DNA of 64,000 nt from Microvirga rosea (lineage in GTDB: Bacteria; Pseudomonadota; Alphaproteobacteria; Rhizobiales; Beijerinckiaceae). Under the pieces are notes generated by a model. That model saw only the letters and a list, made by a program, of their open reading frames with translations. It searched no databases and was not told where the DNA came from. The stretch is taken from positions 124,001-188,000 of the forward strand of contig NZ_JAJDOP010000005.1 in the NCBI RefSeq assembly GCF_020595095.1, read 5' to 3'. How positions within the stretch are numbered: position 1 is the stretch's first letter; each line of letters starts with the position of its first letter. Position numbers and translations under genes: made by a program. Positions 34,640 to 49,456 of this stretch are shown here, in pieces.

Positions 34640-34876
34640 TCAGGAAAACTAGTGGCCAGAGCCGGTTCGACCATAGGACTCGGTGCAGGCACCTGAGAAT
34701 ATGAACCTCTGGCAGTCATGAGAGCGGAAATTCCTCGGCCGGCATGTTCTTGAATATTGGGCGAGATTTTCACGTCGGACCGGCCCATTCTGCAAGCTCA
34801 TTGAAGGCCGGGCAACAAGGAACATGTTTGCAGCTTGGCCGTTGTTACGAAACTCCGTTCCAGAACGCGAGAGCCT

Positions 34877-35851
34877 ATGGTGATCCGGCTCATTCCTGTC
34901 ATCGTCTACCTGGTTCTTTGCTGGCCCGCCCATGCGGCGGAAGCGAAGGCGATCCGTCTTGGCCTGCTCAAATTCGGGACGGTTTCCTGGGAAATGGACA
35001 CGATCAAGGCCCACCGACTGGACGAACGGAACGGTTTTCACCTCAAAGCCATGGAATTCGCAACCAACGAGGCCGCCAAAGTCGCTCTCCTGGCGGGAGC
35101 CGTCGACCTCATCGTGACCGACTGGCCGTGGGTGACCCGCCAACGTGCGGAAGGTGCGCGCTTCAGTTTTGCTCCCTACTCCAAAGCCACCGGAGCGCTC
35201 GTCGTTCCCGCAGGTTCTTCTGTTACGCGTCTGGCGGATCTGAAAGGCAAGCGTGTTGGGGTTGCAGGGGGCCCCCTCGACAAGAGTTGGCTTCTTCTGA
35301 GGGCCTACAACCGTCGCGAGACGGGAAGCGATCTCGCCACGCTGGTCCAACTCGTCTTCGGTGCTCCCCCTCTGCTGAGTGAGGAACTCGCCCAAGGGCG
35401 GATCGACGCCGTTCTCACCTACTGGCATTACGCAGCAAGGTTGCAGGCAGTTGGCGCAACGGTGCTCCTGCCGGTCGCCGATGTGGTCAAAGGCCTGAGT
35501 GGCGGTTCGGATATTCCCATGCTCGGCTATGCGTTCCTCGAGACATGGGCATCCCAGCACCCGGAAGAACTGGAGAGTTTCCTGCAGGCTTCGAGAGAGG
35601 CAAAGGTGCTTCTGGCCGAGTCCGACGCGGAATGGCTGCGCCTAAGGCCTCTCCTCGGCACGTCAGACCCCAAGGTTCAGGCATCCCTCAGGGAGGGTTA
35701 CCGTGCCGGTATCATCAATCGCTGGACCGAAGAGGAACGTCACTCTGCTGCGCGCCTGTATCAGGTTCTCGTGGACGTCGGCGGCGAACAGCTTGTCGGC
35801 CGGGCCACAAAGCTCGAGCCCGGAACATTCTGGCCGCCGAGCGAGCGATAA
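34877..35851 (+). CDS. ABC transporter substrate-binding protein (TauA/SsuA/NMT1-like)
   Basis: Periplasmic binding protein, 324 residues from ATG 34877. Sec signal peptide (VIRLIPVIVYLVLCWPAHAAEA, cleaved near residue 21). The fold is of the nitrate/taurine/thiamine-precursor group: LGLLKFGTVSWEMD at the start, VDLIVTDWPWVTRQR and LKGKRVGVAGGPLDKSW later. First gene of the long operon that continues through xoxF to the oxidase. With the next two genes it makes a complete importer. Ligand unknown; given the neighbours, a cofactor, PQQ-related compound or metal chelate is plausible but unproven. An upstream ATG-containing frame (from 34835) would put polar residues before the signal. Confidence 0.85.
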   Translation: MVIRLIPVIVYLVLCWPAHAAEAKAIRLGLLKFGTVSWEMDTIKAHRLDERNGFHLKAMEFATNEAAKVALLAGAVDLIVTDWPWVTRQRAEGARFSFAPYSKATGALVVPAGSSVTRLADLKGKRVGVAGGPLDKSWLLLRAYNRRETGSDLATLVQLVFGAPPLLSEELAQGRIDAVLTYWHYAARLQAVGATVLLPVADVVKGLSGGSDIPMLGYAFLETWASQHPEELESFLQASREAKVLLAESDAEWLRLRPLLGTSDPKVQASLREGYRAGIINRWTEEERHSAARLYQVLVDVGGEQLVGRATKLEPGTFWPPSER

Positions 35852-35860
35852 AGGCGAGCG

Positions 35861-36613
35861 GTGGTGACAACGAGTCTTCGTCAATGGCAGAACCTGACCT
35901 CGATCGCCCTGCTCCTTGTTCTATGGCAAGTGGGAGCGTATTTTGCAGGCAGCCGCCTCCTGCCTGGTCCCGTGATCGTTTCGTCGGCGCTCCTGCAGGA
36001 GATCACGAACGGTACGCTCATGTGGGATCTTGGAATATCCCTGGCCCGGGTCGGAGTGTCCTTCGTCGTTGCGATGTTTCTCGGCACGACCCTTGGGCTT
36101 GTCCTCGGCCGCCATAAGCAAGCGGACGGCTGGTTTCACCCCTGGCTCGTCGTCTTTCTCAATATTCCGGCGCTGGTCGTCATTATCCTCACCTATATCT
36201 GGCTGGGTCTGACCGAGTCTGCGCTTCTTCTGGCTGTGGCGGCGAACAAGATCCCCAGCGTTGCCGTGACTCTCAGGGAGGGTGCCCGCACTTTGGACCG
36301 TGATCTGGCGGAGGTCGCCGAGGTCTATCGGTTCGGCCTCTTCAAGAGATTGCGCGAGATCATCCTCCCACAGCTTGCTCCCTATCTTCTCGCCGCGGCG
36401 CGGAACGGCTTGTCCCTGGTCTGGAAAATCGTCCTTGTCGCCGAGCTGCTGGGAAGGTCGGATGGCGTTGGATTTCAACTGCAAACATATTTCCAGCTTT
36501 TCGATGTCCCACGTGTCATCGCGTACGCGCTTGCTTTCGTCCTTTGCGTATTGGCAATCGAGGCGATGCTGTTCATGCCGATGGAACGTGCTGTCGAACG
36601 GTGGCGGCGGTGA
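35861..36613 (+). CDS. ABC transporter permease (TauC/SsuC-like)
   Basis: Inner-membrane channel of the importer. About 250 residues from a GTG at 35861 (GTG 35864 is an equal alternative). Six hydrophobic segments and an EAA-type loop (LAEVAEVYRFGLF) before the fifth. VWKIVLVAELLGRSDGVGFQL near the C-terminus is a hallmark of sulfonate/nitrate permeases. Nine bases after the binding-protein stop; its own TGA overlaps a possible GTG start of the ATPase. Confidence 0.87.
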   Translation: MVTTSLRQWQNLTSIALLLVLWQVGAYFAGSRLLPGPVIVSSALLQEITNGTLMWDLGISLARVGVSFVVAMFLGTTLGLVLGRHKQADGWFHPWLVVFLNIPALVVIILTYIWLGLTESALLLAVAANKIPSVAVTLREGARTLDRDLAEVAEVYRFGLFKRLREIILPQLAPYLLAAARNGLSLVWKIVLVAELLGRSDGVGFQLQTYFQLFDVPRVIAYALAFVLCVLAIEAMLFMPMERAVERWRR

Positions 36614-36615
36614 CG

Positions 36616-37239
36616 ATGCGCATCACGATCAGGCGAAAGGAATTCACCGGGAGGTGCATTCTGCGGGACGTCGACATCCGACTCGAACCAGGGGAAATGT
36701 GCGCAATCATAGGTCCGACGGGAATCGGCAAGTCGAGCCTTCTTCAGATTGCCGCCGGTTTGGACAAGGACTTCGACGGAACTGTCAGCGGCGCCAGGGA
36801 ACCACTCGGCTATCTCTTTCAGGGGCATCGCCTGCTTCCATGGAAGACCGCCCTGCAGAACATTCAGCTTGTCCTGCCGCATGCTCCCGATATCGCCAAG
36901 GAATGGCTCTCGAAAGTAGGTCTCGAAGAAGCAGCCGACACTTATCCGGCCCACCTCTCCATCGGCATGGCGCGCCGGGTCGCACTTGCACGAGCGCTTA
37001 GCGTCAACCCGCGCCTCCTCCTTCTCGACGAGCCCTTCTCATCACTCGACCAGGAAACGGCCCGATCCATGCAAGCCTTGGTTCGCGAAGAAGTCTCGCG
37101 GCTTCAGGCGACCCTGCTGGTCGTCACCCATTCCTGGAGCGACATTGCGGCGCTCGTCGACAGAACCGTGACCCTCGGCGGTTCGCCTGCCACGATCGTC
37201 AGCGACACGCCCGTCCTGAGAAAGAAGGCAGCCGAATGA
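36616..37239 (+). CDS. ABC transporter ATP-binding protein with non-standard signature motif
   Basis: ATPase of the TauB/SsuB type, 207 residues. Walker A GPTGIGKSS at 33-41, Q-loop FQGHRLLPW, Walker B LLLLDEP, D-loop SSLDQE and switch His in VVTHSW are intact. The ABC signature reads LSIGMARRVALARAL rather than LSGGQ/M, so the second Gly is replaced by Ile. A GTG at 36610 overlapping the permease stop is an alternative start that adds two residues. Short for the family, lacking a C-terminal extension. Overlaps the next gene by 4 bases. Confidence 0.87.
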   Translation: MRITIRRKEFTGRCILRDVDIRLEPGEMCAIIGPTGIGKSSLLQIAAGLDKDFDGTVSGAREPLGYLFQGHRLLPWKTALQNIQLVLPHAPDIAKEWLSKVGLEEAADTYPAHLSIGMARRVALARALSVNPRLLLLDEPFSSLDQETARSMQALVREEVSRLQATLLVVTHSWSDIAALVDRTVTLGGSPATIVSDTPVLRKKAAE

Positions 37240-38408
37240 GAATTCTCATCCTTCTTCCGGCCCTTCTTTGCATGTCGCCCGCCGTGGCCCAGCAGAATGT
37301 CCTGTCGATTGCCGTCATCAAACAAGATCGGGAAGAGGCCCAGCCTGTATCTCCCTTAGACGACGTTATCACGGATGAAGGCCTTGCCGGCGCGCGGCTT
37401 GGCCTCTCCGACACGGCGACGACAGGGCGCTTTACGGGTCAACGTTTCCAACTTGTCGAGCGTCGTTACAAGGCGGGCACGGATCCCACGGAGATCGTGC
37501 GCTCGGCAACGCAAGACGGGATCCGGTTCATTGTTTCCCTCGCGGACGCTCCGGAAACCACAGCGATCGCGAAAGCGGCGGAGCCGACCGACACGCTGGT
37601 CCTCAACGCACAGGCGCCGGACGACAGCCTCCGCAACGAGGCTTGCCGACGAAACCTCCTCCACACCATTGCGAGCCGCGCGATGATTGCCGACGCGCTT
37701 GCTCAATACCTCGTCCTGAAGCACTGGAAACAATGGTTTCTCGTTGTCGGGAAAGGCTCGGGCGACAAGCTTCTGGCGGAGGCGCTCCGGCGCTCGGCTC
37801 GCAAGTTCGGGGCCGAGATCGGCACGGAGAAAGAGTGGACGTTCGCGCAGGGAAATGCGCGCGCCGATACGGGACATGTCGCTCTGCAGACGGAGATCCC
37901 ATCCTTCACGCAGGTGAAAGACTATGACGTCCTCATCGTCGCGGACGAAACCGATGAGTTCGGCGACTATCTCGACGGCCGGACAGCCCGCCCCCGCCCG
38001 GTTGCTGGGACGCAGGGATTGAAGGCGACCGGTTGGTCGCCCGTCAGCGAGCAATGGGGTGCGACGCAGCTCCAGACCCGGTTCGCCAAGCAGACGAAGC
38101 GCCGCATGACCACTATCGACTATGCGGCCTGGTCCGCAGTTCGGGCGGTGGGCGAAGCTGCAATCAGATCGGGATCGCAAGACCCAGAAAGAATATCCAC
38201 CTACATGCGTGGACCGGACTTTCTGTTGTCGGGTTTTAAAGGTCAGGGACAGAGTTTTCGTCCCTGGGACGGGCAAATGCGTCAACCCATTCTGATCGCG
38301 GGGCCGCGATTGCTCGTCTCGGTATCGCCACAGCCGGGGTTCCTTCATCAGCGTTCCGAACTCGACACTCTCGGTCAAGACAAGGGGGAAAGCCGATGCA
38401 CATACTAA
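37236..38408 (+). CDS. PQQ-dehydrogenase-associated ABC substrate-binding protein
   Basis: Periplasmic protein of 390 residues with a Sec signal (ILILLPALLCMSPAVAQQ). It has the type-I (LivJ-like) binding-protein layout: VLSIAVIKQDREEA start, a stretch of GLADAPETT... comparison loops and a C-terminal MRRPDF-like MRGPDFLLSGFKGQ. It matches the protein family found next to PQQ alcohol dehydrogenases together with a beta-propeller and a two-component ABC transporter. Counterparts are needed for lanthanide use in Pseudomonas (pedA1A2BC) and Methylorubrum (lut genes); identity with those is an inference. ATGA overlaps on both flanks. Confidence 0.82.
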   Translation: MRILILLPALLCMSPAVAQQNVLSIAVIKQDREEAQPVSPLDDVITDEGLAGARLGLSDTATTGRFTGQRFQLVERRYKAGTDPTEIVRSATQDGIRFIVSLADAPETTAIAKAAEPTDTLVLNAQAPDDSLRNEACRRNLLHTIASRAMIADALAQYLVLKHWKQWFLVVGKGSGDKLLAEALRRSARKFGAEIGTEKEWTFAQGNARADTGHVALQTEIPSFTQVKDYDVLIVADETDEFGDYLDGRTARPRPVAGTQGLKATGWSPVSEQWGATQLQTRFAKQTKRRMTTIDYAAWSAVRAVGEAAIRSGSQDPERISTYMRGPDFLLSGFKGQGQSFRPWDGQMRQPILIAGPRLLVSVSPQPGFLHQRSELDTLGQDKGESRCTY

Positions 38409-39361
38409 GAGCGTCCTGTGTGTTGTGCTGGTTGATGCTCCCTGCCATGGCCCAAGCCGAAACGGTTTACGTGACCAATGAGCAGGACAACACGGTTTCC
38501 GTCATCGATGGAAAGACCCTGTCGCTCGCGGCAACCATTCCGGTCGGACGTCGGCCGAGGGGCCTGGTTCTCAGCCGTGACCTAAAGAAGCTCTACGTCG
38601 CTGTCGGAGACGACAACCGCATTGATATCGTGGACTTGGAAACCCGGAAGGTCGCGGGGGAAATTTCCTCGGGAAGCGATCCCGAATTTTTCGCTCTCCA
38701 TCCCGATGGGCAACGGCTTTTCATCGCCAACGAGGACGATAACCAAGTGTCGGTTGTCGATCTCCCGCAAAACAAGATCATCCAGGAGATAGACGTCGGA
38801 GTCGAACCGGAGGGCGTCGGGATCAGCCCAGATGGGAGAACGGCTGTCGCGACGTCCGAAACGACGAGCATGATCCACCTCATTGACACGCAGAGCCTTG
38901 AGCTGATCGACAACATCCTTGTCGACACTCGACCCCGTGTGGTGCAATTCTCGTCCGACAACAAACAGATATGGGTGTCATCGGAGCTGCGCGGCACCGT
39001 ATCGGTCTTCGACGCTGCCAGTCGAGAGCTTCTGGCCAAACTCCATTTCGAAATTCCGGGAGTTCCTCGCGAACTTGTTCAGGCCGTCGGGATTCAACTG
39101 TCGAGGGATGGATCGAAAGCCTACGTGGCTTTGGGTCCGGCCAACCGTGTCGCCGAAATCGATGCCAAATCGTTCCAGGTTCTGCGCATATATCTCGTGG
39201 GCCAGCGGGTCTGGCATATCGCGCTGTCACCGGACGAGAAACGACTTTACACGGCCAATGGAAATTCGAGCGATGTTTCCCTCATTGACCTGGAGCAGCA
39301 GCAAACCGTGAAAAGCATCGGAGTCGGTCGATCCCCCTGGGGCGTTGTGGTGGCGCCGTGA
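38396..39361 (+). CDS. YVTN-type beta-propeller, PQQ-catabolism-associated
   Basis: Exported beta-propeller of 321 residues. Signal peptide LRASCVLCWLMLPAMAQA, then repeats of about 42 residues each carrying VYVTNEQDNTVSVID, LYVAVGDDNRIDIVD, LFIANEDDNQVSVVD, and later LYTANGNSSDVSLID. The regular DDN/D-loops could bind metal ions. Its place between a binding protein and an ABC-2-type transporter is the conserved order in PQQ alcohol dehydrogenase clusters. Role is unproven: ligand delivery or sensing in the periplasm. Strong GGGGGA Shine-Dalgarno; stop overlaps the GTG of the next gene. Confidence 0.87.
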   Translation: MHILRASCVLCWLMLPAMAQAETVYVTNEQDNTVSVIDGKTLSLAATIPVGRRPRGLVLSRDLKKLYVAVGDDNRIDIVDLETRKVAGEISSGSDPEFFALHPDGQRLFIANEDDNQVSVVDLPQNKIIQEIDVGVEPEGVGISPDGRTAVATSETTSMIHLIDTQSLELIDNILVDTRPRVVQFSSDNKQIWVSSELRGTVSVFDAASRELLAKLHFEIPGVPRELVQAVGIQLSRDGSKAYVALGPANRVAEIDAKSFQVLRIYLVGQRVWHIALSPDEKRLYTANGNSSDVSLIDLEQQQTVKSIGVGRSPWGVVVAP

Positions 39362-40080
39362 AGGCTCTTGCGGTCACACGACTGAGCCATGTTTTCGGAC
39401 GGCGACAGGCGCTGCAGGAAGTCAGTCTGTGCGTTGAGGCGGGATCGTTCACGGTTCTCCTCGGTCCCAACGGAGCCGGAAAGACGACCTTGATTTCTCT
39501 GATCACCGGACTTTACGCTCCGCAGTTCGGGGAGATCCGGATCTTTCGCCATGACGCGCGCCGCGAGCCCCTGGCGGCGCTGGCAGAACTCGGTGTCGTC
39601 TTTCAGGCGCAGACGTTGGACCTCGATCTCAGCGTGATGGAAAACCTTCGCTATCACGCCGCCCTGAGAGGTCTCTCGCGCAAGGACGCCGACACGCGCA
39701 TCAGGATCGAGCTCGATCATCTCCAACTGACGGACCGCTCATCGGACAAGGTCCGCACCTTGTCCGGAGGAATGCGCAGAAGGGTCGAAATCGCCCGGGC
39801 TCTCATTCATGAGCCACGTCTTCTGATCGTGGATGAGGCCACGGCCGGTCTGGATGTCGCGGCACGACGCCTTCTGCTGGCTTATGTCCGGGAGCTATGC
39901 CGGAGCCGTCAGCTTGGCGTTTTATGGGCCACTCACCTTCTTGATGAGATCGAACCGGACGATCCCTTGGTCCTTTTGCATGCCGGCAAGATCCGCTGGC
40001 AAGGACAAGCTGCCGCAATGACGCGCGAAGAGGAAGATCTGTCGAAGGCGTTTCTGAGACTGACGGAGCACTCTTCGTGA
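39358..40080 (+). CDS. ABC-2-type ATP-binding protein, PQQ-catabolism-associated
   Basis: Cytosolic ATPase of 240 residues from a GTG start overlapping the propeller's TGA. Walker A GPNGAGKTT at 36-44, signature LSGGMRRR, Walker B LLIVDEATAGLD, switch His in WATHLLDEI. The dual C-terminal shape is of the CcmA/NodI/DrrA group that partners ABC-2 permeases. Works with the next gene. Corresponds in position to pedB/lutE-type genes. Confidence 0.9.
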   Translation: MKALAVTRLSHVFGRRQALQEVSLCVEAGSFTVLLGPNGAGKTTLISLITGLYAPQFGEIRIFRHDARREPLAALAELGVVFQAQTLDLDLSVMENLRYHAALRGLSRKDADTRIRIELDHLQLTDRSSDKVRTLSGGMRRRVEIARALIHEPRLLIVDEATAGLDVAARRLLLAYVRELCRSRQLGVLWATHLLDEIEPDDPLVLLHAGKIRWQGQAAAMTREEEDLSKAFLRLTEHSS

Positions 40081-40880
40081 GACTCTTGCACGCGTTCCGC
40101 GCGCTCGGCGGCATCACGCGGCGCGAGTGCTTTAAAATCCTCAATCAGCGGGGACGTCTGGCGTCGGCCATCGTGCGGCCCCTTGTTTGGCTCGGCCTCT
40201 TTGCGGCCGGGTTCCGCTCCATCCTTGGATTGTCGATCATCCCCCCCTATGAAACCTATATTCTCTACGAGGTCTATATTGTGCCCGGCCTCGCCGCCAT
40301 GATGCTCCTCTTCCATGGCCTTCAGAGCTCGCTCTCCATGGTCTACGACCGGGAAATGGGCTCGATGCGCGTTCTCCTGACGGCGCCTCTTCCACGGTGG
40401 TGGCTTCTGACCGCCCGCCTCATCGCCAACACCCTCGCGGTCATTCCGCTTGTTTACCTTTTCCTTTTGCTTGCCCGGTTCTGGAACATTCGGCCTCCTA
40501 CGCTCGGTTACGCTTCGGCGCTTCCGGCTTTGGTTCTGGCAGGTCTGATGCTGGGGGCGTTCGGCTTGTTCATATCGTCCCTCATCCGTCAGCTTGAGAA
40601 CTTTGCCGGTGTGATGAACTTCGTCATCTTCCCGATGTTTTTCGCATCGACGGCGCTTTATCCCTTGTGGCGCCTGGACGACGTGAATCCTCTGCTGGGA
40701 TGGCTTGCGCGCCTGAATCCGTTCACTCATGCCGTAGAGTTAATCCGCTTCTCGCTCTACCTCCAATTTGCCCCCGTCTCGGCCCTGGTATGCGCCGCGC
40801 TGCTGCTTTTCTTTCTGGGGCTGGCGGCTTGGAGCTATGATCCCGGTCGAGGCTTTTGGGCTCAAAGGACAGTCGCATAA
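40077..40880 (+). CDS. ABC-2-type permease, PQQ-alcohol-dehydrogenase-associated
   Basis: Integral membrane protein of 267 residues from GTG 40077, six hydrophobic helices. ITRRECFKILNQRGRLAS at the N-terminus and the RPLVWLGLFAAGF and NFVIFPMFFASTALYPLWRL segments mark the ABC-2 exporter-type family (NodJ/DrrB), the same family as PedC. ABC-2 systems usually export, yet the PedABC/Lut systems have been tied to lanthanide acquisition, so direction of transport is open. A 79-base gap follows before xoxF, the largest in the operon, and could hold an internal promoter; I see no clear one. Confidence 0.88.
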   Translation: MRLLHAFRALGGITRRECFKILNQRGRLASAIVRPLVWLGLFAAGFRSILGLSIIPPYETYILYEVYIVPGLAAMMLLFHGLQSSLSMVYDREMGSMRVLLTAPLPRWWLLTARLIANTLAVIPLVYLFLLLARFWNIRPPTLGYASALPALVLAGLMLGAFGLFISSLIRQLENFAGVMNFVIFPMFFASTALYPLWRLDDVNPLLGWLARLNPFTHAVELIRFSLYLQFAPVSALVCAALLLFFLGLAAWSYDPGRGFWAQRTVA

Positions 40881-40959
40881 AATGTGACCTTGGAACTTCT
40901 GAGAAGCGAAGCCGTTGAGTCACGCCGACCCAAGACTCCGATCGTTCAGGGGTGCGTTG

Positions 40960-42762
40960 ATGTGCCGTTTCGTTGGTCTGATTTTTGGCGTAACTTTTGC
41001 TTTGTCAGGCCTCATAACTTCGGCAACCGCCCAAACAGCCCAGCCCGCTCCTCCGGTAGCTGCGGCCCCGTCCGAGGATGGCCAATGGGTGATGCCCACC
41101 AAGAATTTCGCAGGAACGCGCTATAGCGAATTGTCCGAGATCAACACGGACAACGTCAAGAACCTGCAGGTCGCCTTCACGTTCTCCACCGGAGTCAACA
41201 AAGGGCAGGAATCGTCGCCGATCGTTGTCGGCTCCACCATGTATATCCTGTCTCCCTACCCCAACATTCTCTATGCGCTCGATCTCTCCCGGCCGGGCGC
41301 GCCGCTGAAGTGGCAGTACAATCCGAAACCCGATTCAGCGGCTCAAGGCGTCGCCTGCTGCGATGTGGTCAACCGGGGTCCGACTTTCGCCAACGGCCGG
41401 ATCTACTTCACCACCCTCGATGCGAACGTGGTCGCGGTCAATGCCGACACGGGCGAGGAAGTCTGGAAGACGAAAATCGGTGACATCAACAAGGGCGAGA
41501 CCATGACCATGGCGCCCTTGGTGGCCAAGGACAAGGTCGTCGTCGGAATCTCGGGCGGCGAGTACGGCGTGCGTGGCTGGATCGAGGCGCTGGATGCGGC
41601 CTCCGGCAAGAGCGTCTGGAAAGCCTACAGCACCGGTCCCGATCAGGATGTGAAGATCGGCAGTGCATTCAAGGCATTCTACGATTCGGAGAAAGGCAAG
41701 GATCTCGGTGTGACGACCTGGCCGCCGGACGCCTGGCAGCAGGGCGGCGGCACGGTATGGGGTTTCATCACGTACGATCCCGACCTCAACCTCATCTTTT
41801 ACGGCCCCGGCAATCCAGGCCCATGGAATCCGAACCAGCGGCCCGGCGACAACAAATGGACCAATGGGGTCTTCGCGCGCAATCTCGATACCGGAGAAGC
41901 TCACTGGTTTTATCAGTGGAACCCGCACGATCTTTTCGATTGGGACGGGATCAACGAGAACGTTCTCCTCGATCTCGATTGGAAGGGGCAGAGACGCAAG
42001 GTTCTCGTCCACCCGGACCGCAACGGACTTCTCTATGTCGTCGACCGCACCACGGGCGAGGTGCTGTCCGCCAGTTTCTACCATGCGGTCAATGCGCACC
42101 AAGGCGTCGATCTGGCAACTGGCCGGATCAAAATCAATCAGGACAAATACCCGCTCCAGAACAAGGTCATTCGAGACATCTGCCCTACGGCGCCCGGAGC
42201 CAAGGATTGGAGCCCCTCCGCGTTCTCGAACAAAACCGGATATCTCTATATTCCCCATAACAACCTATGCATGGATTGGGAGAGCGTCGAGCCCAACTAC
42301 GTCGCCGGAACCCCTTATATCGGCGCAGAAGTCAGGATGATCCCCGGCCCGGGCGGGCATATGGGTGAATTCTCCGCCTGGGATATCGTGGCAGGCAAGG
42401 AGGTGTGGACCATCAAGGAGCGTTTCCCGGCGTGGGGCGGCGCAATGGCGACTGCCGGAGATGTCGTCTTTTACGGGACGATGGAAGGATGGTTCAAGGC
42501 TGTTCACGCCCGGACCGGTGAAGTGCTTTGGCAGTTCAAAACCGACTCCGGGATCATCGGGCAGCCGACGACCTATCGGGGTCCCGACGGCAAGCAGTAC
42601 GTGGCGATCATTTCCGGCGTCGGCGGATGGGCGGGCGCCATCGTCTCCAACGATCTCGATCCGCGCGATGGAACGGCGGCCAAAGGCTTCGTCAACGCCA
42701 TGCGGGACTTGAAAAATGTCACCACGAAGGGAGGAACGCTCTATGTGTTCAAGCTTCCCTAG
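40960..42762 (+). CDS. xoxF: PQQ-dependent methanol dehydrogenase, lanthanide (XoxF) type
   Basis: Periplasmic quinoprotein oxidising methanol and other small alcohols. 600 residues from ATG 40960 (AGGGG Shine-Dalgarno); a TTG at 40915 only adds residues before the signal peptide (VGLIFGVTFALSGLITSATAQ). Eight-bladed propeller with repeated tryptophan-docking motifs, the vicinal disulfide CC at 133-134 over PQQ, and the active-site DWDG, with the catalytic Asp at 327 and an Asp at 329. The second Asp is the residue that marks lanthanide-binding XoxF; calcium-type MxaF has Ala there. No mxaI small subunit in the window. Followed by xoxJ (20-base overlap) and a cytochrome c gene. Confidence 0.93.
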   Translation: MCRFVGLIFGVTFALSGLITSATAQTAQPAPPVAAAPSEDGQWVMPTKNFAGTRYSELSEINTDNVKNLQVAFTFSTGVNKGQESSPIVVGSTMYILSPYPNILYALDLSRPGAPLKWQYNPKPDSAAQGVACCDVVNRGPTFANGRIYFTTLDANVVAVNADTGEEVWKTKIGDINKGETMTMAPLVAKDKVVVGISGGEYGVRGWIEALDAASGKSVWKAYSTGPDQDVKIGSAFKAFYDSEKGKDLGVTTWPPDAWQQGGGTVWGFITYDPDLNLIFYGPGNPGPWNPNQRPGDNKWTNGVFARNLDTGEAHWFYQWNPHDLFDWDGINENVLLDLDWKGQRRKVLVHPDRNGLLYVVDRTTGEVLSASFYHAVNAHQGVDLATGRIKINQDKYPLQNKVIRDICPTAPGAKDWSPSAFSNKTGYLYIPHNNLCMDWESVEPNYVAGTPYIGAEVRMIPGPGGHMGEFSAWDIVAGKEVWTIKERFPAWGGAMATAGDVVFYGTMEGWFKAVHARTGEVLWQFKTDSGIIGQPTTYRGPDGKQYVAIISGVGGWAGAIVSNDLDPRDGTAAKGFVNAMRDLKNVTTKGGTLYVFKLP

Positions 42763-43564
42763 AATTCTCGTGGCGGCGGCCTTGCTTGTCGGCGGCCAGG
42801 TTCAGGCGCGGGAGCTGCGCGTGTGTGCCGATCCCAACAACCTCCCCTTTTCCAATGCCGCGAAAGAAGGTTTCGAAAACCGGATTGTGGATCTTATCGC
42901 CCGCTCCCTCGAGGCGGACGTGACGTATGTCTGGCGTGCGCAACGCCGTGGGTTCCTGCGCGAAACCCTGAAGGCCGAGCAATGTGACCTCGTGCCAGGA
43001 TTGCCGAGCAATCTGGAAGGTGTGCGCACGACGGCCCCCTATTACCGGTCAAGCTACGTTTTCGTCGTTCGGTCAGGGGAACCCTTGCCGAAATCCTATA
43101 ACGACCCGCTACTGCGTGAGCGCCGTATCGGCGTCCAGCTCGTCGGCGACGATGGATGGAACACGCCGCCTGCCCATGCCCTCGCGCGACGGGGCATTAC
43201 CGACAATGTTCGGGGTTACACTCTTTACGGAGATTATCGGGAACCGGATCCGCCCGCTCGCATCATCAGGGCGGTTGCGGACGGAGAGATCGATATCGCC
43301 GTCGCCTGGGGGCCTCTCGCAGGATATTTCGCATCGCGACAGAAAGTGGCCCTCGACCTTGCGAAGGTCAGCCCCGCTTTCGACGGTCCGCAACTTCCCA
43401 TGGTCTGGGACATCTCCCTCGCCGTGCGAAAGGACGATGATGCCTTGCGCCGTGAGCTCGACGACTTCCTGCAGCAGCATCGTGGCGAGATCGACATGAT
43501 TCTGGCGGATTACGGCGTTCCGCGCCTCGATGCCGTTGCTCATCATGCGGCAGGTTTCCCATGA
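42743..43564 (+). CDS. xoxJ: XoxJ/MxaJ-like periplasmic binding protein
   Basis: Quinoprotein-dehydrogenase-associated protein of the substrate-binding fold, 273 residues. Signal peptide (PRILVAAALLVGGQVQA), then LRVCADPNNLPFSN, the hallmark of this group. The ATG at 42743 lies inside the xoxF 3' end with GGGAGG 8 bases upstream. XoxJ is thought to help maturation or partner interaction of the dehydrogenase. Its TGA overlaps the next gene's ATG. Confidence 0.9.
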   Translation: MCSSFPRILVAAALLVGGQVQARELRVCADPNNLPFSNAAKEGFENRIVDLIARSLEADVTYVWRAQRRGFLRETLKAEQCDLVPGLPSNLEGVRTTAPYYRSSYVFVVRSGEPLPKSYNDPLLRERRIGVQLVGDDGWNTPPAHALARRGITDNVRGYTLYGDYREPDPPARIIRAVADGEIDIAVAWGPLAGYFASRQKVALDLAKVSPAFDGPQLPMVWDISLAVRKDDDALRRELDDFLQQHRGEIDMILADYGVPRLDAVAHHAAGFP

Positions 43565-44121
43565 AGCTGTTACCGTTCATCATCTGCCTTGGCTTTTCTC
43601 TCGCAGCATGTGAGCGGGAGAAGAGGGATTTCCGCACAGCGCCCGTTTCGGAAGAGAGCCAGGAAAAGACAGCGCTTGTATCCCTATCCCCCGGAAGTTC
43701 TCCGCCCGAACAGGAGGTTTCGGGAAAGGCCCGCTCCTTTGAAGGCAATGCTTATCACCTGAGTCAGGGAAAGCGCCTCTATGCATGGTTCAACTGCAAT
43801 GGTTGCCATGCCAACGGCGGCGGCGATTCCGGACCTCCGTTGATGGACGATCGATGGATTTACGGCAGCTCCCTGGAGAACATCGTTCAGACGATCCGGG
43901 AAGGTCGCCCCAACGGCATGCCGTCGTTCCGCGGCAAGCTTCCCGATGATCAGATCTGGGAGCTTGCGGTCTATGTTCGCTCCATGAGCGGCCTCGAGCC
44001 GAAAGCGGCGGCGCCCAGCCGGAACGACGATATGCATCCGCTTCCATCCGAGAACCGGATGCCGCCAAGTTCGCCGGTGCCGGGTGGCAGCGCCTCGCCA
44101 TCGGCCACAGCCCCTCAATAG
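43561..44121 (+). CDS. Lipoprotein c-type cytochrome, predicted XoxF electron acceptor
   Basis: 186 residues. The N-terminus ends in a lipobox SLAAC (C17), so the protein is predicted to be lipid-anchored in the periplasm rather than soluble as classical XoxG. One haem site CNGCH (C79, C82, H83) and a probable axial Met at M120 (NGMPSF). A disordered Pro/Ser-rich tail of ~45 residues follows. Its position right after xoxF-xoxJ and eight bases before the oxidase subunit II gene suggests that it carries electrons between the two. The best name is XoxG-like. Confidence 0.88.
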   Translation: MKLLPFIICLGFSLAACEREKRDFRTAPVSEESQEKTALVSLSPGSSPPEQEVSGKARSFEGNAYHLSQGKRLYAWFNCNGCHANGGGDSGPPLMDDRWIYGSSLENIVQTIREGRPNGMPSFRGKLPDDQIWELAVYVRSMSGLEPKAAAPSRNDDMHPLPSENRMPPSSPVPGGSASPSATAPQ

Positions 44122-44129
44122 GAGGGCAC

Positions 44130-45131
44130 ATGCGTCTCCGCATCGTCAGTATCGCATCTCTGGTCCCCCTGGCAGGTTGCAAGGGATGGCAATCGGCTCT
44201 CGACACTCATGGGCCAGGCGCGACATCCCTTGAAAAGCTCTTCTGGATTTTCCTTTTCATCCTGACGGTCGTGTGGATCCTGACGATGCTGGGCTTGCTT
44301 GTGGCCCTGCGAGCAAGGCGCGACGCGGCCACAGACCCTCTGGCGGTCGATGCCACCAGGGAGCGGACGATGACCCGCACGGTCGCGACGCTTGTGGGCC
44401 TGACGGCGGTCACCGTGCTGGCCTTGACCGGCTTTAGCTACGCTTATCAGAAGCGTCTTTTCGATCGGACGGAGAACGTTCTCACGATCAAGGTGACGGG
44501 ACATCAATGGTGGTGGCAGGTCGATTATGAAGACGAGCAGCCGAACCGAACCTTCACCACAGCCAACGAGATTCACATCCCGGTCGGAGAGCCTGTCCGC
44601 CTCAAGCTTGAGGCGAGCGACGTCATCCACTCGTTCTGGGTTCCAAGCCTCATGGGCAAGATGGACAATATTCCCGGCCGTCAGAACGTCATTGAACTGC
44701 AGGCAGACCGTGAAGGCGTGTATCGCGGTCAATGCGCGGAATTCTGCGGCTGGCAACACGCCCATATGGCGATGCTGATTGTCGCCAAGCCCAAAGCCGA
44801 ATTCGAGAACTGGAAAAACCAGCAGATCGCATCAGCCTCGCCTCCGTCCGACGATGCGCAAAAGCGCGGCGAGCAGGTCTTTTTCACGAGCCCCTGCGTC
44901 ATGTGCCATTCGGTGCGCGGCACTTCGGCCGGTGGAAGAGTCGGGCCGGATCTGACCCATGTCGGAAGTCGCCTGACCCTCGCTGCCGGCACGCTTCAGA
45001 ACACGAGAGGCAATCTGGCCGCATGGATCGTTGATCCTCAGAGGATCAAGCCGGGGACCAATATGCCGCTCATGCAGATCAATCCTCAGGATCTCGACCT
45101 GCTCGTCAGCTATCTGGAGGGCCTGAAATGA
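44130..45131 (+). CDS. coxB: Cytochrome c oxidase subunit II with fused cytochrome c (caa3 type)
   Basis: 333 residues. Lipobox-like LAGC at 14-17 predicts a lipoprotein N-terminus. Two membrane helices (about 36-60, 84-103), a cupredoxin domain with the complete CuA set C202-C206-H210-M213 (CAEFCGWQHAHM), then a fused C-terminal haem c domain with CVMCH (C256, C259, H260) and axial M312. The fused haem receives electrons directly from donor cytochromes. ATG with AGGAGG, and an ATGA overlap with ctaD. Confidence 0.95.
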   Translation: MRLRIVSIASLVPLAGCKGWQSALDTHGPGATSLEKLFWIFLFILTVVWILTMLGLLVALRARRDAATDPLAVDATRERTMTRTVATLVGLTAVTVLALTGFSYAYQKRLFDRTENVLTIKVTGHQWWWQVDYEDEQPNRTFTTANEIHIPVGEPVRLKLEASDVIHSFWVPSLMGKMDNIPGRQNVIELQADREGVYRGQCAEFCGWQHAHMAMLIVAKPKAEFENWKNQQIASASPPSDDAQKRGEQVFFTSPCVMCHSVRGTSAGGRVGPDLTHVGSRLTLAAGTLQNTRGNLAAWIVDPQRIKPGTNMPLMQINPQDLDLLVSYLEGLK

Positions 45132-47050
45132 GCGAAGCCTATGCGGCGCCGGACCCCAAGGAGCTGCGCGATCATCAGATCGGCGGGCCCGAGCTGACGG
45201 CTCGGCTGGCAAAGACATGGGGTACGGAGAAAGGTCTGCTGGGAGCCCTTTCCACCGTCGATCATAAGATCATCGGCCGGCGATACATCATCACCGCATT
45301 CCTGTTTCTCTTTCTCGCCGGTCTGGCCGCGGTCGCCATGCGCCTGCAGCTGGCGCGTCCGGAGAGCAGGCTGATTGGACCTGACCTCTACAACCAGCTC
45401 TTCACCATGCACGGGACAACCATGATGTTCCTGTTCGCCGTGCCGGTGATGGAAGCGTTCGCCGTTTATCTCGTGCCTCTCATGGTCGGCACGCGCAACA
45501 TCGCATTTCCGCGCCTGAACGCCTTCAGCTACTATGTTTATGTCTTCGGCGGTCTCATGATCTGGGTCGCCTTCATGCTCAACATCGGCGCGGATGTCGG
45601 CTGGTTCGCCTATGTGCCGCTCTCCGGCCCGGAATTCTCCCCGGGCAAGCGGGCCGACATATGGGCGCAGATGATCACCTTCACGGAAGTTTCCGCTCTG
45701 GCCGTCGCGGTTGAAATCGTCGTGACCGTGCTCAAGCAGCGCGCGCCAGGAATGACCCTCGACAGGATACCGCTCTTCGTCTGGTCCGTCTTCATTACGT
45801 CCTTTCTCATCATCTTCGCCATGCCGGCGGTGATGATCGCCTCGACGTTCCTGATCCTCGACCGCCTGATCGGCACCCATATTTTCAACCCCGCCGAAGG
45901 GGGCGATGCGCTTCTTTGGCAGCACCTCTTCTGGTTTTTCGGGCATCCCGAGGTCTATATCATTTTCCTGCCCGCGACCGGGATGGTGTCGGCCATCATC
46001 ACGACGTTCTCGCGCCGCAGAACATTCGGCTACCTTGCCCTCGTGCTCTCTTTGATTGCCACGGGTTTCCTATCGTTCGGCCTGTGGGTGCACCACATGT
46101 TCACGACGGGACTTCCCCAGCTCGGCGCGAGTTTCTTCACGGCATCCAGCATGCTGATCGCCATTCCCAACGGCATCCAGATCTTCTGCTGGATCGCCAC
46201 ATTATGGGACGGACGGCCCATTTTCCGTACACCGCTTCTCTTCGTCCTTGGCTTCTTCTTTATTTTCGTGGCAGGCGGCCTCTCGGGACTTATCCTCGCC
46301 TCGGTTCCTCTCGATACTCAGGTTCACGATACCTACTTCGTGGTGGCGCACTTTCACTATGTGTTGATCGGCGGCGCCGTCTTTCCGCTGCTCGGCGCCG
46401 TTTACTACTGGTATCCGAAGATCGTCGGCCGCCTCTTGGACGAACGTATCGGGAAATGGCACTTCTGGCTTGCGTTCGTCGGCTTCAACGTGGGCTTCTT
46501 CCCCATGCATATCACCGGCCTGATGGGCATGCCCCGGCGGATCTACACCTATCTTCCCGAAATGGGCTGGGGCAATCTGAACCTTCTTTCGTCCGTCGGC
46601 ACCCTCGTCTTTTTCTTCAGCTTCGTCGTGTTTCTCTGGAATGTGGTCTCCAGCGCCAAATCGGGAGCCGTGGCCGGAGACAATCCGTGGGATGCAGGGA
46701 CCCTGGAATGGGCGACATCGTCGCCTCCACCGCCGCAGAACTTCGACCGCATTCCCGTTGTCACCAACCGTGAACCGTTATGGGCCGAGCGTGAAAAACT
46801 GCCCGTGGCGACAGGTCTAAGCGTCGAGAATCGTGAGCTGATCGTCTCGACCGTCACCGAAGCCCGCGCCGATATCCGCGAAACATCGCCCGAGCCTTCG
46901 ATCTGGCCCCTCCTAGCCGCCATTGCGACAGGGGTGACGTTCATTGCCTCGATCTTCACGCCATGGGCCGTGGTGTGGGGCAGCGCGATCGTCGGCGTCG
47001 CACTCATTGCATGGTTCTGGCCCAAGGGCGCGAAAGAGGACGAAGCATGA
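45128..47050 (+). CDS. ctaD: Cytochrome c oxidase subunit I, A1-type haem-copper oxidase
   Basis: Catalytic subunit reducing O2 to water and pumping protons. 640 residues, 12 core helices plus a C-terminal extension with about two more, as in caa3 oxidases. Ligands seen: H95 and H410 for the low-spin haem, H408 for the high-spin haem, H273, H322 and H323 for CuB. The Tyr cross-link partner Y277 and the A1-type proton-gate Glu E275 are in GHPEVY. Start overlaps coxB and stop overlaps coxC by ATGA. Confidence 0.96.
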   Translation: MSEAYAAPDPKELRDHQIGGPELTARLAKTWGTEKGLLGALSTVDHKIIGRRYIITAFLFLFLAGLAAVAMRLQLARPESRLIGPDLYNQLFTMHGTTMMFLFAVPVMEAFAVYLVPLMVGTRNIAFPRLNAFSYYVYVFGGLMIWVAFMLNIGADVGWFAYVPLSGPEFSPGKRADIWAQMITFTEVSALAVAVEIVVTVLKQRAPGMTLDRIPLFVWSVFITSFLIIFAMPAVMIASTFLILDRLIGTHIFNPAEGGDALLWQHLFWFFGHPEVYIIFLPATGMVSAIITTFSRRRTFGYLALVLSLIATGFLSFGLWVHHMFTTGLPQLGASFFTASSMLIAIPNGIQIFCWIATLWDGRPIFRTPLLFVLGFFFIFVAGGLSGLILASVPLDTQVHDTYFVVAHFHYVLIGGAVFPLLGAVYYWYPKIVGRLLDERIGKWHFWLAFVGFNVGFFPMHITGLMGMPRRIYTYLPEMGWGNLNLLSSVGTLVFFFSFVVFLWNVVSSAKSGAVAGDNPWDAGTLEWATSSPPPPQNFDRIPVVTNREPLWAEREKLPVATGLSVENRELIVSTVTEARADIRETSPEPSIWPLLAAIATGVTFIASIFTPWAVVWGSAIVGVALIAWFWPKGAKEDEA

Positions 47051-47646
47051 GGCACGACCCCGTTCTCGACGTTTCAAAGCTGCCCACCTATGGCTTCGGG
47101 CACCGCAGCCCGATGTGGTGGGGAACGCTGGGCTTCTGCACGCTGGAGGGGATGGGCTTCGCGATTGCGATCGGCGCGTATCTCTACCTTTCCTTTCTCA
47201 ATCCCCAATGGCCCTTGAGCGTACCGCCTCCCGACCTGATTTGGGCGAGTCTGCTGACGATCCTGCTCATCATCAGCATCATCCCGAACTATCTCACTCA
47301 GAAATTCGGCGAAGAGGAAAACCTCGCCAAGGTTCGTGTCTATCTCGTTGTCATGTCGGTTCTGGGCTTCGTGGCCATCGGAATTCGCTTTCTGGAGTTC
47401 GGACGCCTCCATGTGAAGTGGGACCAGAACGCCTATGGCTCCCTGCTGTGGGCCCTGCTGGGTCTACACACCACCCATATCATTACCGATGTCGTCGATA
47501 CCCTCGTGCTCACGGCCCTGATGTTCACCCGGCATGGCCACGGCAAGAGATTCAGCGATGTCGGAGACAATGCCTTCTACTGGAACTTCGTCGTTCTGTC
47601 GTGGCTTCCCATGTATGCCCTGCTCTACTGGGGCCCGAGGCTATGA
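47047..47646 (+). CDS. coxC: Cytochrome c oxidase subunit III
   Basis: 199 residues from ATG 47047 (ATGA with ctaD); the frame extends upstream to 46963 but that lies inside ctaD. Five hydrophobic helices and the conserved GSLLWALLGLHTTHIITDVVDT core, the short five-helix form of subunit III. Stabilises subunit I during turnover. Confidence 0.92.
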   Translation: MRHDPVLDVSKLPTYGFGHRSPMWWGTLGFCTLEGMGFAIAIGAYLYLSFLNPQWPLSVPPPDLIWASLLTILLIISIIPNYLTQKFGEEENLAKVRVYLVVMSVLGFVAIGIRFLEFGRLHVKWDQNAYGSLLWALLGLHTTHIITDVVDTLVLTALMFTRHGHGKRFSDVGDNAFYWNFVVLSWLPMYALLYWGPRL

Positions 47647-47653
47647 GGCGCCT

Positions 47654-48004
47654 ATGATCTCGTATCTGCGCAGCGGTATTCCGTCTGCCGGCATTTTTGC
47701 CGGTCCTTCTGCTTGGCTTCTCAATACGCAGATCAACTACGCACTCGTACCCTGGATTTGCGCTCACCATATGCGCCTCGTGCCGCTTGTGGCTTGCGTG
47801 ATGGCGGCCTTAAGCCTCTTCGGCGGATTTCTCTCGTGGCGCGCCTATGACCGCGCGAGCATCACACCCCAGCCCGACAGCTCCGGAGCGGGACGACCCC
47901 ACCGGTTTACGGCGGCGACAGGCATCGGAATGGCGCTTCTGTTCGCGCTCGTGATCATTGTTCAAGGGACCGCGGGCATAGTCTTTCACGGATGCGAGCG
48001 ATGA
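47654..48004 (+). CDS. Small membrane protein of the oxidase operon
   Basis: 116 residues from ATG 47654. Three hydrophobic stretches (about 10-30, 42-62, 88-108), with GPSAWLLNTQINYALVPWICAHH near the N-terminus. I know no function for it; proteins of this shape occur beside CtaG-type genes in alphaproteobacterial caa3 operons. It may be a fourth structural subunit or an assembly factor. Seven bases after coxC, ATGA overlap with ctaG. Earlier starts in the frame overlap coxC. Confidence 0.8.
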   Translation: MISYLRSGIPSAGIFAGPSAWLLNTQINYALVPWICAHHMRLVPLVACVMAALSLFGGFLSWRAYDRASITPQPDSSGAGRPHRFTAATGIGMALLFALVIIVQGTAGIVFHGCER

Positions 48005-48909
48005 GACGCGTTCTGATCCTGACTGCCGTTCTGGCTCCTCTTCCGGCCTTGGCACATGGGGGTAGCCACGATCCGGCATCCCCATGGTCGCTCGAAGCAT
48101 GGGTGGCGGCCCCCCTTCTTGCATCCGCCGCTCTTTATACCTGTGGCGTGATACGCCTTTGGCGAAAGCTGCAGCCCGGTCGCGGTGTCCGTGGCTGGCA
48201 GGCCGTGAGCTTCGCCTGTGGATGGATACTTCTCGCCATAGCCCTTGTTTCTCCGATGCACGAACTCGGCGAGCGTCTCTTTGCGGCCCACATGCTGGAG
48301 CACGAAATCCTGATGACCGTGGCGGCCCCTCTTCTGGTGATCGCCCGTCCCGTCGGAGGAATGTTGTGGGCTCTGCCCCCCGCCCTGCGGCGCAGCATCG
48401 GCGGCATCAGCCGGCACAAAGGGGTGGCCCGGTTGTGGCGTGTTCTGATCGATCCGCTCGTCGCGACGGTCCTTCATGGAGCTGCCGTCTGGATCTGGCA
48501 CATCCCGGTCCTTTTCAACGCTGCGCTCGCCAATCCCGCAATTCATGGCCTTCAGCATGTCAGCTTCTTCGGAACCGCTCTCCTGTTCTGGTGGTCGCTC
48601 CTGAGAGGCCGGGCCCGCGTGAGAGGGTATGGGGTGGCCGCGCTCTACCTGTTCCTCACGGCTCTTCACTCCGGCTTTCTCGGCATTCTGCTGTCGATTG
48701 CGCGCGCGCCGATCTATCCGGGCCAATCAGCGGCCGCTCCGCAATGGGGACTGATGCCTTTGGAAGACCAACAGCTGGCCGGCCTCATTATGTGGGTGCC
48801 CGCAGGGGTAGTTTACGCCGCAGCGACGCTTGTCATGCTGGGGATCTGGATCCGCCAATCCAGCATTCCGTCACTCTCAGGAGGAGGTCATGCGCCCCTA
48901 CCGCGCTAA
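48001..48909 (+). CDS. ctaG: CtaG-family (caa3-type) oxidase assembly protein
   Basis: 302 residues from ATG 48001 overlapping the preceding TGA. N-terminal hydrophobic signal ending ALAHGG, then about seven membrane helices. The HMLEHEILM and TALHSGFLG segments with conserved His are typical of the caa3_CtaG family, linked to copper site assembly of caa3 oxidases. Not the Cox11-type protein of the same name. Overlaps the next gene's start by 20 bases. Confidence 0.9.
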   Translation: MRRVLILTAVLAPLPALAHGGSHDPASPWSLEAWVAAPLLASAALYTCGVIRLWRKLQPGRGVRGWQAVSFACGWILLAIALVSPMHELGERLFAAHMLEHEILMTVAAPLLVIARPVGGMLWALPPALRRSIGGISRHKGVARLWRVLIDPLVATVLHGAAVWIWHIPVLFNAALANPAIHGLQHVSFFGTALLFWWSLLRGRARVRGYGVAALYLFLTALHSGFLGILLSIARAPIYPGQSAAAPQWGLMPLEDQQLAGLIMWVPAGVVYAAATLVMLGIWIRQSSIPSLSGGGHAPLPR

Positions 48910-49456
48910 CCCGCCTTTCATGGCGCTTGGAGCTGTCCTGGTTGCCTGGGCGCTGGCGAAGCGTCGAGGGGGTCGTGACACTCGAAAAGCGAAGGCTTCG
49001 CCCGACCCTCAAGACATATACGCAGCTCCCGCTTTACCGCAGCTCTCTCGACGCACCGCCCTTTGGAAAAGCCTGGGCTTAGGAGCTCTTGCGGCCATAT
49101 TGATCGCAGGCGGGTATCTCGGCGTTTATTACCAGTCGCTCCAGGATCGACGGGATCACGCAGAGCGCCTTGTCGGCGGACGCGCGCACCAGGGACAGAT
49201 TGCGATTGCCCGTTATGGCTGCTCCGGCTGTCATACGATCCCCGGCATATCGCGAGCAGACGGCCTCGTGGGACCGCCCCTCACCTCTCTGCCACGGCGC
49301 GTCTACATCGCCGGAGTCCTGAAGAATTCGCCCGACAATCTCGTGCGATGGATTGTCGACCCTCGTCAAATCAACCCGCAGACTGCAATGCCCCGCACAG
49401 GCATTTCGCAAGCCGAAGCGCGTGACGTCGTTGCCTATCTTTATACGATTGACTAG
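48890..49456 (+). CDS. Membrane-anchored c-type cytochrome
   Basis: 188 residues from ATG 48890, with AGGAGG 3-4 bases upstream. Two hydrophobic segments (about 8-24 and 62-80) flank a basic loop; the C-terminal domain is periplasmic with haem site CSGCH (C111, C114, H115) and likely axial M167 (TAMPRTG). Its WIVDPRQINPQTAMP stretch resembles the haem domain of the operon's subunit II (WIVDPQRIKPGTNMP), which suggests common descent. Last gene of the operon. Could be an extra electron donor or an oxidase subunit. Confidence 0.88.
   Translation: MRPYRANPPFMALGAVLVAWALAKRRGGRDTRKAKASPDPQDIYAAPALPQLSRRTALWKSLGLGALAAILIAGGYLGVYYQSLQDRRDHAERLVGGRAHQGQIAIARYGCSGCHTIPGISRADGLVGPPLTSLPRRVYIAGVLKNSPDNLVRWIVDPRQINPQTAMPRTGISQAEARDVVAYLYTID

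Follow-up and report, generated by a model that had tools for sequence, protein, structure and literature searches.

A putative stress-linked, PQQ-scavenging alcohol respiration module in Microvirga rosea

In a 64,000-nt stretch of the genome of the soil bacterium Microvirga rosea (the window, meaning the whole stretch of DNA analysed), sixteen genes at 34877–49456 join two putative ATP-binding cassette (ABC) systems to the alcohol dehydrogenase XoxF and a caa3-type oxidase. We consider it probable, with expression and electron flow inferred, that they form two co-regulated units that together make up a stress-induced alcohol respiration module scavenging pyrroloquinoline quinone (PQQ). Two adjacent transcription units would both be controlled by EcfG, the alphaproteobacterial general stress sigma factor. 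Unit 1 (genes 1–7) would gather cofactors: a PqqT-type ABC system would take up PQQ from outside, because the cell apparently makes none, and a Lut-type ABC set would handle lanthanides. Unit 2 (genes 8–16) would constitute an alcohol-oxidising respiratory chain, in which an alcohol is oxidised by periplasmic XoxF carrying a lanthanide and PQQ obtained by scavenging. A lipid-anchored cytochrome c would then hand the electrons to the haem c/CuA subunit II and so to a caa3 oxidase whose assembly involves CtaG. Methylotrophic growth on methanol is improbable for this host; electron harvesting or alcohol removal under stress is the likelier use of the module.

Gene block and its conservation

Translation and family searches recovered sixteen open frames on the plus strand, as an earlier sequence-only reading had claimed, and Pfam or NCBIfam matches back every assignment but that of gene 14 (lengths in amino acids, aa):

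34877–35851, plus strand: gene 1, predicted PqqT-like periplasmic PQQ-binding protein, 324 aa (PqqT sequence and fold match)
35861–36613, plus strand: gene 2, ABC permease, SsuC-like (PF00528; NCBIfam matches below cut-off)
36616–37239, plus strand: gene 3, ABC ATPase, SsuB-like (PF00005; NCBIfam matches shown below cut-off)
37236–38408, plus strand: gene 4, LutA/PedA-type substrate-binding protein (TIGR03863 above cut-off)
38396–39361, plus strand: gene 5, LutD-type beta-propeller (TIGR03866 above cut-off)
39358–40080, plus strand: gene 6, LutE-type ABC ATPase (TIGR03864 above cut-off)
40077–40880, plus strand: gene 7, LutF/PedC-type ABC-2 permease (TIGR03861 above cut-off; PF01061)
40960–42762, plus strand: gene 8, XoxF, lanthanide-type PQQ alcohol dehydrogenase (TIGR03075 above cut-off; best PDB match 4mae)
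42743–43564, plus strand: gene 9, XoxJ-like periplasmic protein (TIGR03871 above cut-off)
43561–44121, plus strand: gene 10, cytochrome c, predicted lipoprotein (PF13442; LAAC lipobox by eye)
44130–45131, plus strand: gene 11, oxidase subunit II with CuA domain and C-terminal haem c (TIGR02866 above cut-off; PF00116, PF00034; one CxxCH)
45128–47050, plus strand: gene 12, oxidase subunit I (TIGR02891 above cut-off)
47047–47646, plus strand: gene 13, oxidase subunit III (PF00510 above cut-off)
47654–48004, plus strand: gene 14, 116-aa protein of no known family with three long predicted helices (conserved, aligns over 15 loci)
47992–48909, plus strand: gene 15, CtaG oxidase assembly factor (PF09678; NCBIfam caa3_CtaG below cut-off)
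48890–49456, plus strand: gene 16, membrane-anchored cytochrome c (PF00034; one N-terminal hydrophobic stretch by eye)

Within genes 1–7 the joints run as two gaps (9, then 2 nt) followed by four overlaps (4, 13, 4 and 4 nt); those within genes 8–16 are overlaps of 20 and 4 nt, a gap of 8 nt, two overlaps of 4 nt, a gap of 7 nt and overlaps of 13 and 20 nt, the longer overlaps varying with the start codons chosen. The single large gap in the block, 79 nt (40881–40959), separates gene 7 from xoxF. Scans for sigma-70 promoters and terminators performed no better than chance. Gene 14, between subunit III and CtaG, has no Pfam or NCBIfam match, and a fold search with its predicted structure (predicted local distance difference test, pLDDT, 85.6) gave no PDB match at E ≤ 0.001. 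Divergent from the block on the minus strand (29640–34621) lies a set of the branched-chain 2-oxoacid dehydrogenase type (E1 alpha, E1 beta, E2, E3).

To place the block in context, we label genomes G and loci L; G000 is the host genome, and genus genomes are those of the Microvirga group. The block's subunit I (COX1) was found at 79% identity or more in 20 of 48 genus genomes, the host included, and in all 20 the cluster also has a XoxF gene, upstream of COX1 (the window plus 13 and 6 loci); given this constancy, the gene order is not due to chance. Of the 37 genus genomes queried for both genes, 14 carry XoxF at ≥74% together with COX1 at ≥79% identity, and the other 23 reach neither threshold; matches below these thresholds comprise COX1 at 49–56% in G024, G004 and G022 and a XoxF-type gene at 49% in G030. 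The same-order search that the sequence-only reading had proposed gave a positive answer, with all sixteen genes recurring in the same order in, for example, Microvirga sesbaniae L012, L147–L150 and L152.

The closest COX1 among the named loci is that of M. sesbaniae L012 (80%), whose XoxF is identical to that of G009. Counting matches of at least 45% identity, a XoxF-type gene adjoins the oxidase in 11 of 80 named loci: Microvirga L012, Bradyrhizobium L013 and L015, Pseudoroseomonas L017, a Rhodospirillales metagenome-assembled genome (MAG; L023), Sphingomonas MAGs L022 and L024, a Gemmatimonadales MAG (L025), Massilia L027, Methylobacillus caricis L029 and a Rokubacteria MAG (L030). We count L013, L015, L022, L024, L025, L027, L029 and L030 as linkage beyond the genus in favour of the proposed module. 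A class-wide COX1 search at E ≤ 1e-190 found matches in 7 of 384 genomes besides the host (G337, 69%; G131, 64%; G155, 54%; and four at 48–51%). On a COX1 tree built from 45 chosen rows, a subset of the loci, the XoxF-linkage label changes 8 times against a shuffled mean of 15.3; linkage is thus clustered on the tree, yet has been repeatedly gained or lost. One supported clade of 29 rows mixes XoxF-linked and unlinked members. Separately, G036 (L135, contig C1) carries a second, different XoxF (55–57%) beside a caa3 oxidase of another subclade, whose K-channel Lys is replaced by Ala. Judging from these comparisons, the linkage of XoxF, cytochrome, caa3 oxidase and CtaG is conserved.

Where XoxF is missing, FdhF/YdeP-type molybdopterin oxidoreductase genes adjoin oxidases of the same clade (L018:5954–8368, assigned by family match; L020, L031, L033 and L014, assigned by eye).

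Cofactor supply and the two forms of XoxF

Gene 8 scores 643 bits against the TIGR03075 cut-off of 480 and conserves both a vicinal Cys pair and Glu, Asn, Asp and Asp at positions 172, 256, 299 and 301 of 4mae, which we take to be the lanthanide (Ln) ligands; it thereby qualifies as a XoxF alcohol dehydrogenase of the lanthanide type that would use such a metal. In a tree without a labelled XoxF3 reference, which leaves out the short loci L093–L105 (repeats of L122–L134) and does not include L147–L152, the block XoxF groups with sequences from Gemmatimonadota, Rokubacteria and Massilia, apart from L106–L111 and L136. The window and 16 of the 19 other genus genomes have a XoxF in which the lanthanide ligands and all checked PQQ-site residues are preserved.

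The host genome is 100% complete (5.0 Mb, 38 contigs, contamination 1.15), and no match above cut-off to pqqC (TIGR02111) or pqqE (TIGR02109) was found in it, which contradicts the earlier description of the chain as self-contained. Because neither gene was found while the ligand and PQQ-site residues of XoxF are intact, the host enzyme most likely uses PQQ from outside. Across 19 genomes examined, both genes are present in 6 (G007, G036, G038, G040, G046 and G060) and neither in 13. The survey covered 14 of the 20 block-bearing genus genomes, six further ones lying outside it; 12 of these 14, G000 included, have no pqqC or pqqE above cut-off, and four of the five block-less genomes have both, the fifth (G030) having neither. 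Among the genomes of the 11 named loci with a linked XoxF-type gene, six have pqqE; those without it are M. sesbaniae, which is the same as G009, two Sphingomonas MAGs of ~2 Mb, a MAG of 2.8 Mb and Massilia sp. 9I, whose genome of 5.5 Mb has its locus on a 5.5-Mb contig. The small MAGs may be just incomplete.

Two further observations concern PQQ enzymes in genomes of this kind. The Massilia sp. 9I locus (L027) has a XoxF-caa3 cluster with the checked XoxF ligands intact and no pqqE match in the genome, and the M. rosea genome, which has no pqqC or pqqE match, encodes a second PQQ-type protein (G000:C12:654653–656515; 884-aa open frame).

Genes 1–3 are a candidate route for this supply. The predicted structure of gene 1 (mean pLDDT 90.1) matches the PqqT-PQQ crystal structures 9b1u, 9b1v and 9ooz at E 2e-34 or better, with template modelling (TM) scores of 0.88/0.95 and 41–42% identity (42% to 9b1u), and the next fold match is of the SsuA type (E 1e-16, 20% identity). 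Y182, the Tyr changed in the PqqT Y161W variant 9ooz, and K136, the lysine of an LDK motif that we take to be a PQQ contact in PqqT, are invariant in 10 aligned sequences. Because gene 1 closely resembles PQQ-bound PqqT, genes 1–3 are probably a PQQ importer. Family searches return an SsuA-like ABC set for these genes, which raises the alternative that they import something else, such as sulfonate or a thiamine precursor, and that their position is incidental. The NCBIfam matches are indeed to SsuA-type models only, below cut-off, but in sequence searches gene 1 matches PqqT at E 4e-66 against 3e-5 for the SsuA entry 3e4r, and the pattern of loss described below tracks the XoxF cofactor residues; we regard this alternative as very improbable.

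The distribution of the PqqT system agrees with a role in PQQ supply. It lies within the ~20 kb examined at the locus in 8 of 9 examined genomes that lack pqqC/E and have an intact XoxF, in none of three genomes with a ligand-less XoxF and in neither of two PQQ producers at the block locus, although the genomes behind these counts are related, making this a pattern and not a test. In G007 (L136), a relative of 44% identity stands beside that genome's other XoxF, near pqqC and pqqE.

For genes 4–7, all four products exceed the cut-offs of TIGR03863, TIGR03866, TIGR03864 and TIGR03861, an ABC set named for PQQ-dependent alcohol dehydrogenases whose members presumably correspond to LutA, LutD, LutE and LutF of the Lut/Ped systems. 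Pfam and NCBIfam searches of the block identified no LutH-type TonB receptor among the sixteen genes. The earlier claim of two ABC systems for cofactor and metal therefore holds at the level of sequence, genes 1–3 looking PQQ-type and genes 4–7 lanthanide-type. An Nramp-family transporter gene lies ~12 kb upstream of the block (21570–22871, minus strand); NRAMP genes also occur beside xoxF3 systems in Acidobacteria and Gemmatimonadetes, as described in part of PMC10875860.

Three sister species, G017 (L133), G021 (L132) and G035 (L134), carry a ligand-less XoxF. In residues to which we assign lanthanide-ligand, catalytic and PQQ-site roles, the Ln Glu is replaced by Gln, the catalytic Asp by Gly or Ala and the PQQ-site Arg by Gln; two of these proteins also have Ser in place of both the second Asp and the stacking Trp, and the third has Ser in place of the Ln Asn. 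The frames are nevertheless open, and the pairwise ratio of nonsynonymous to synonymous substitution rates (dN/dS) is 0.087–0.127, so the ligand-less XoxF is under purifying selection beside the oxidase; intact pairs have a lower ratio (0.050–0.064). COX1 shows 0.086–0.107 in these species against 0.036–0.070 elsewhere. Their clusters contain no PqqT, lutA/D/F, xoxJ or ctaG match within the 20 kb examined. Because importer genes are missing where the XoxF ligands are lost, the pattern supports a role of the importers in loading XoxF, and the retention of the ligand-less protein hints at a second role for XoxF. Distant ligand-less XoxF relatives, below the NCBIfam cut-off, also accompany the same oxidase in L017 and L023.

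Such retention can be read differently, with the oxidase as the conserved unit and XoxF as just one partner among several, either exchangeable or structural, that in some lineages would act without PQQ or metal. The mixed 29-row COX1 clade, the FdhF/YdeP gene beside the oxidase in L018, the selection on ligand-less XoxF in L132–L134 and the relatives in L017 and L023 all fit this idea. The ligands are nonetheless intact in 17 of the 20 genus genomes, which points to selection on catalysis, and the lower dN/dS of intact XoxF suggests that the ligand-less copies are perhaps partly relaxed, yet COX1 is raised in the same species. On balance we find this explanation quite unlikely.

Stress promoters, the oxidase and the weighing of readings

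GGAAC-N16-CGTT is the conventional EcfG promoter motif, according to the part of PMC7083833 available to us. The window contains only two perfect copies, one at the head of each proposed unit:

34819–34843, plus strand: EcfG-type motif GGAAC-N16-CGTT, perfect copy, 33 nt before gene 1
40892–40916, plus strand: EcfG-type motif GGAAC-N16-CGTT, perfect copy in the 79-nt gap, 43 nt before xoxF

Because one motif lies in the 79-nt gap and the other before gene 1, the one continuous block of the sequence-only reading, whose sixteen same-strand genes do adjoin, may in fact be two co-regulated transcription units. That reading had named separate promoters together with unlinked expression of the oxidase genes as what would speak against it, and the motif before xoxF goes part of the way towards the first of these.

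A looser form, GGAAC-N16/17-GTT, stands no more than 200 nt ahead of the xoxF match in 16 of the 19 other genus loci, where 0.015 sites per locus would be expected, and its spacers have diverged among loci. It begins 54–60 nt before the PqqT-like start in all nine block loci that have both the start and upstream DNA (the window, L127, L128, L131, L147–L150 and L152). In two Bradyrhizobium loci, sites start 103–113 nt before the subunit II match and 103–112 nt before the xoxF match. None of the nine non-alphaproteobacterial loci (L021, L025–L027, L029, L030 and L032–L034) has a site just upstream, and L136, with its 44% relative, has no perfect motif upstream. The host genome holds phyR, nepR and a gene for an extracytoplasmic function (ECF) sigma factor together, in a 9-kb stretch with six perfect motifs. 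Taken together, the gene block is apparently switched on by the general stress system.

Another candidate regulatory feature did not hold up. A perfect inverted repeat, GTCACATTAAAAATGTGAC, directly follows the block (window 49472–49490), and the xoxF promoter motif is closely preceded by an imperfect version of it, GTCGCATAAAATGTGAC (window 40872–40888); the palindrome GTCACAT...ATGTGAC was dropped as an operator, the pattern being absent from the 15 relative loci L122–L136.

A second explanation is an ordinary XoxF3 methanol-oxidation cluster that is linked to growth, induced by methanol or lanthanide and feeds the general respiratory chain, adjacency reflecting shared regulation only. XoxF3-cox-ctaG clusters have been described in several phyla (PMC10875860, seen in part), and the host genome has five other full-length COX1-family genes. 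In a genome with these five genes, the bypass of the general cytochrome pool suggested by the sequence-only reading is a conjecture. The same genome has no match to Fae or RuBisCO, other formaldehyde routes not having been searched, and methanol growth of the host is doubtful on that account. The lack of pqqC and pqqE matches and the stress-type promoter motifs also argue against an ordinary cluster, and we judge it unlikely.

The oxidase has the make-up of a caa3 enzyme (subunit II with CuA and haem c, subunits I and III, CtaG), and subunit I retains the two checked haem-ligand His columns, the active-site Tyr and the GHPEV Glu. Relative to mycobacterial CtaD, however, its D-channel Asp is Asn (N124) and its K-channel Lys is Gln (Q351), and subunit II lacks the canonical helix-II Glu/Trp-Thr motif around the K-path Glu, so that Asp, Lys and Glu of the canonical A-type haem-copper oxidase channels are all replaced or absent. 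In COX1 rows of at least 59% identity the channel positions hold Asn/Ser and Gln, apart from L026 with a retained Asp and L053, which lacks the first column; Asp is kept together with Gln in L026, L028, L029 and L153. A Glu has been gained at position 187 in 19 of 19 clade rows (excluding L026, which keeps Asp, the incomplete L053 and L068, and the host copy L006) and in 39 of 41 Asp+Gln rows, where 20 of 21 canonical rows have Gly; at position 196, Asn has become Glu in 12 of the 19 clade rows. Proton uptake by the oxidase is probably altered. We do not conclude that it is non-pumping, because the Glu gained at 187, in the same region, leaves a rerouted path possible.

A bolder form of the favoured reading would combine these features into a general-stress module in which a lanthanide alcohol dehydrogenase on imported PQQ delivers electrons to its own oxidase, whose proton path has been rebuilt and may no longer pump. 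XoxF would be tied so closely to this oxidase that some lineages keep it as a cofactor-free partner after it has lost catalysis. We entertain this tentatively, as an unlikely elaboration.

Several points weigh against the PQQ-scavenging stress module itself. Gene identities, order, conservation, motifs, residue states and the pqqC, pqqE, Fae and RuBisCO non-matches come directly from the sequence, but PQQ import, lanthanide use, electron path, stress induction and substrate are deduced from them, and expression, binding and activity are predictions. Shuffled windows contain a mean of 0.46 perfect EcfG motifs, and 7 of 100 have at least two; given this rate, the EcfG case draws on motif position and conservation. 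The xoxF site is missing in 3 of 19 sister loci (L122, with a spacing of 18; L126, ending in GATT; L151, with none), and the other alphaproteobacterial loci L017, L019, L022 and L023 have no site close by. G030 has a XoxF-type gene without the block or pqqC/E, and PQQ scavenging is therefore, by this pattern, not confined to the block. G025 combines an intact XoxF and no pqqC/E with no PqqT match in ~59 kb (20 kb at the locus plus 39 kb of further flank). Why PQQ should cross the inner membrane to reach a periplasmic XoxF is unclear, and PqqT may merely bind or deliver it; LutF, in turn, is of the ABC-2 type, a fold often found in exporters. Gene 10 reaches 29 bits against the 147.8 cut-off of the MoxG model TIGR03872 and is on that account named simply a cytochrome c. 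The L017 and L023 genomes do have pqqE, which argues against a simple tie of ligand loss to PQQ loss, and the same-clade oxidases with and without XoxF, as in L018, count on this side as well.

Relation to known systems and implications

PqqT (PDB 9b1u, 9b1v and 9ooz), whose structures presumably derive from Methylorubrum extorquens, resembles gene 1 in fold, in 42% identity and in the conserved Tyr that is varied in 9ooz. The known PqqT host makes PQQ itself, unlike M. rosea, where no pqqC or pqqE was found. CoxMNOP, an alternative oxidase of Bradyrhizobium, resembles the block in its caa3-like gene set; the Bradyrhizobium loci L013 and L015 carry oxidase and XoxF genes related to those of the block.

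The core of the block has been described. XoxF3-cox-ctaG clusters are reported in Acidobacteria and Gemmatimonadetes (PMC10875860), and cox/ctaG also appears with xoxF in a legend of PMC11845868; no other paper among those consulted places cox/ctaG with xoxF. According to the sections of PMC10875860 available to us, the XoxF3 systems share XoxF, XoxG, XoxJ, CoxI-II-III, CtaG, CytC, a YncE propeller and a ~110-aa protein between CoxIII and CtaG, and their neighbours are NRAMP, MscS and TonB genes, unlike the Microvirga block with its PqqT and Lut ABC sets, EcfG motifs and lack of pqqC/pqqE. In the same sections we found no mention of PqqT or Lut ABC sets, missing pqqC/pqqE, EcfG motifs or oxidase channel residues.

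The lut cluster of Methylorubrum extorquens AM1 has LutA, LutE and LutF types in common with genes 4–7, and AM1 lutE and lutF mutants show no growth on methanol with La in Table 2, suppressors appearing later (PMC7391723, available in part; the word "oxidase" was not found there). The sixteen genes of the block, unlike that cluster, include no LutH-type TonB receptor. Use of PQQ-dependent enzymes without PQQ synthesis is also known from PqqU scavenging, which employs an outer-membrane TonB receptor, whereas the candidate here is an inner-membrane ABC system; the available part of PMC12124388 describes PqqU as largely absent from Alphaproteobacteria and its survey presents this class as mainly PQQ producers. 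The statement of the sequence-only reading that no example of the full gene set was described thus falls for the XoxF and caa3 core but stands for the form with PqqT, Lut and EcfG elements: as far as the open-licence literature searched shows, the PQQ-scavenging, EcfG-linked form is new.

The block joins three usually separate fields: lanthanide enzymes, PQQ sharing between bacteria and the general stress response. Against the survey's view of the class, 12 of the 14 examined block-bearing genomes look like PQQ scavengers, and most of them carry a putative importer within the cluster. As a natural experiment, the three sister species whose XoxF is ligand-less could show how XoxF serves the oxidase. 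The oxidase clade, for its part, allows a test of how far haem-copper oxidases manage without the classical proton-channel residues.

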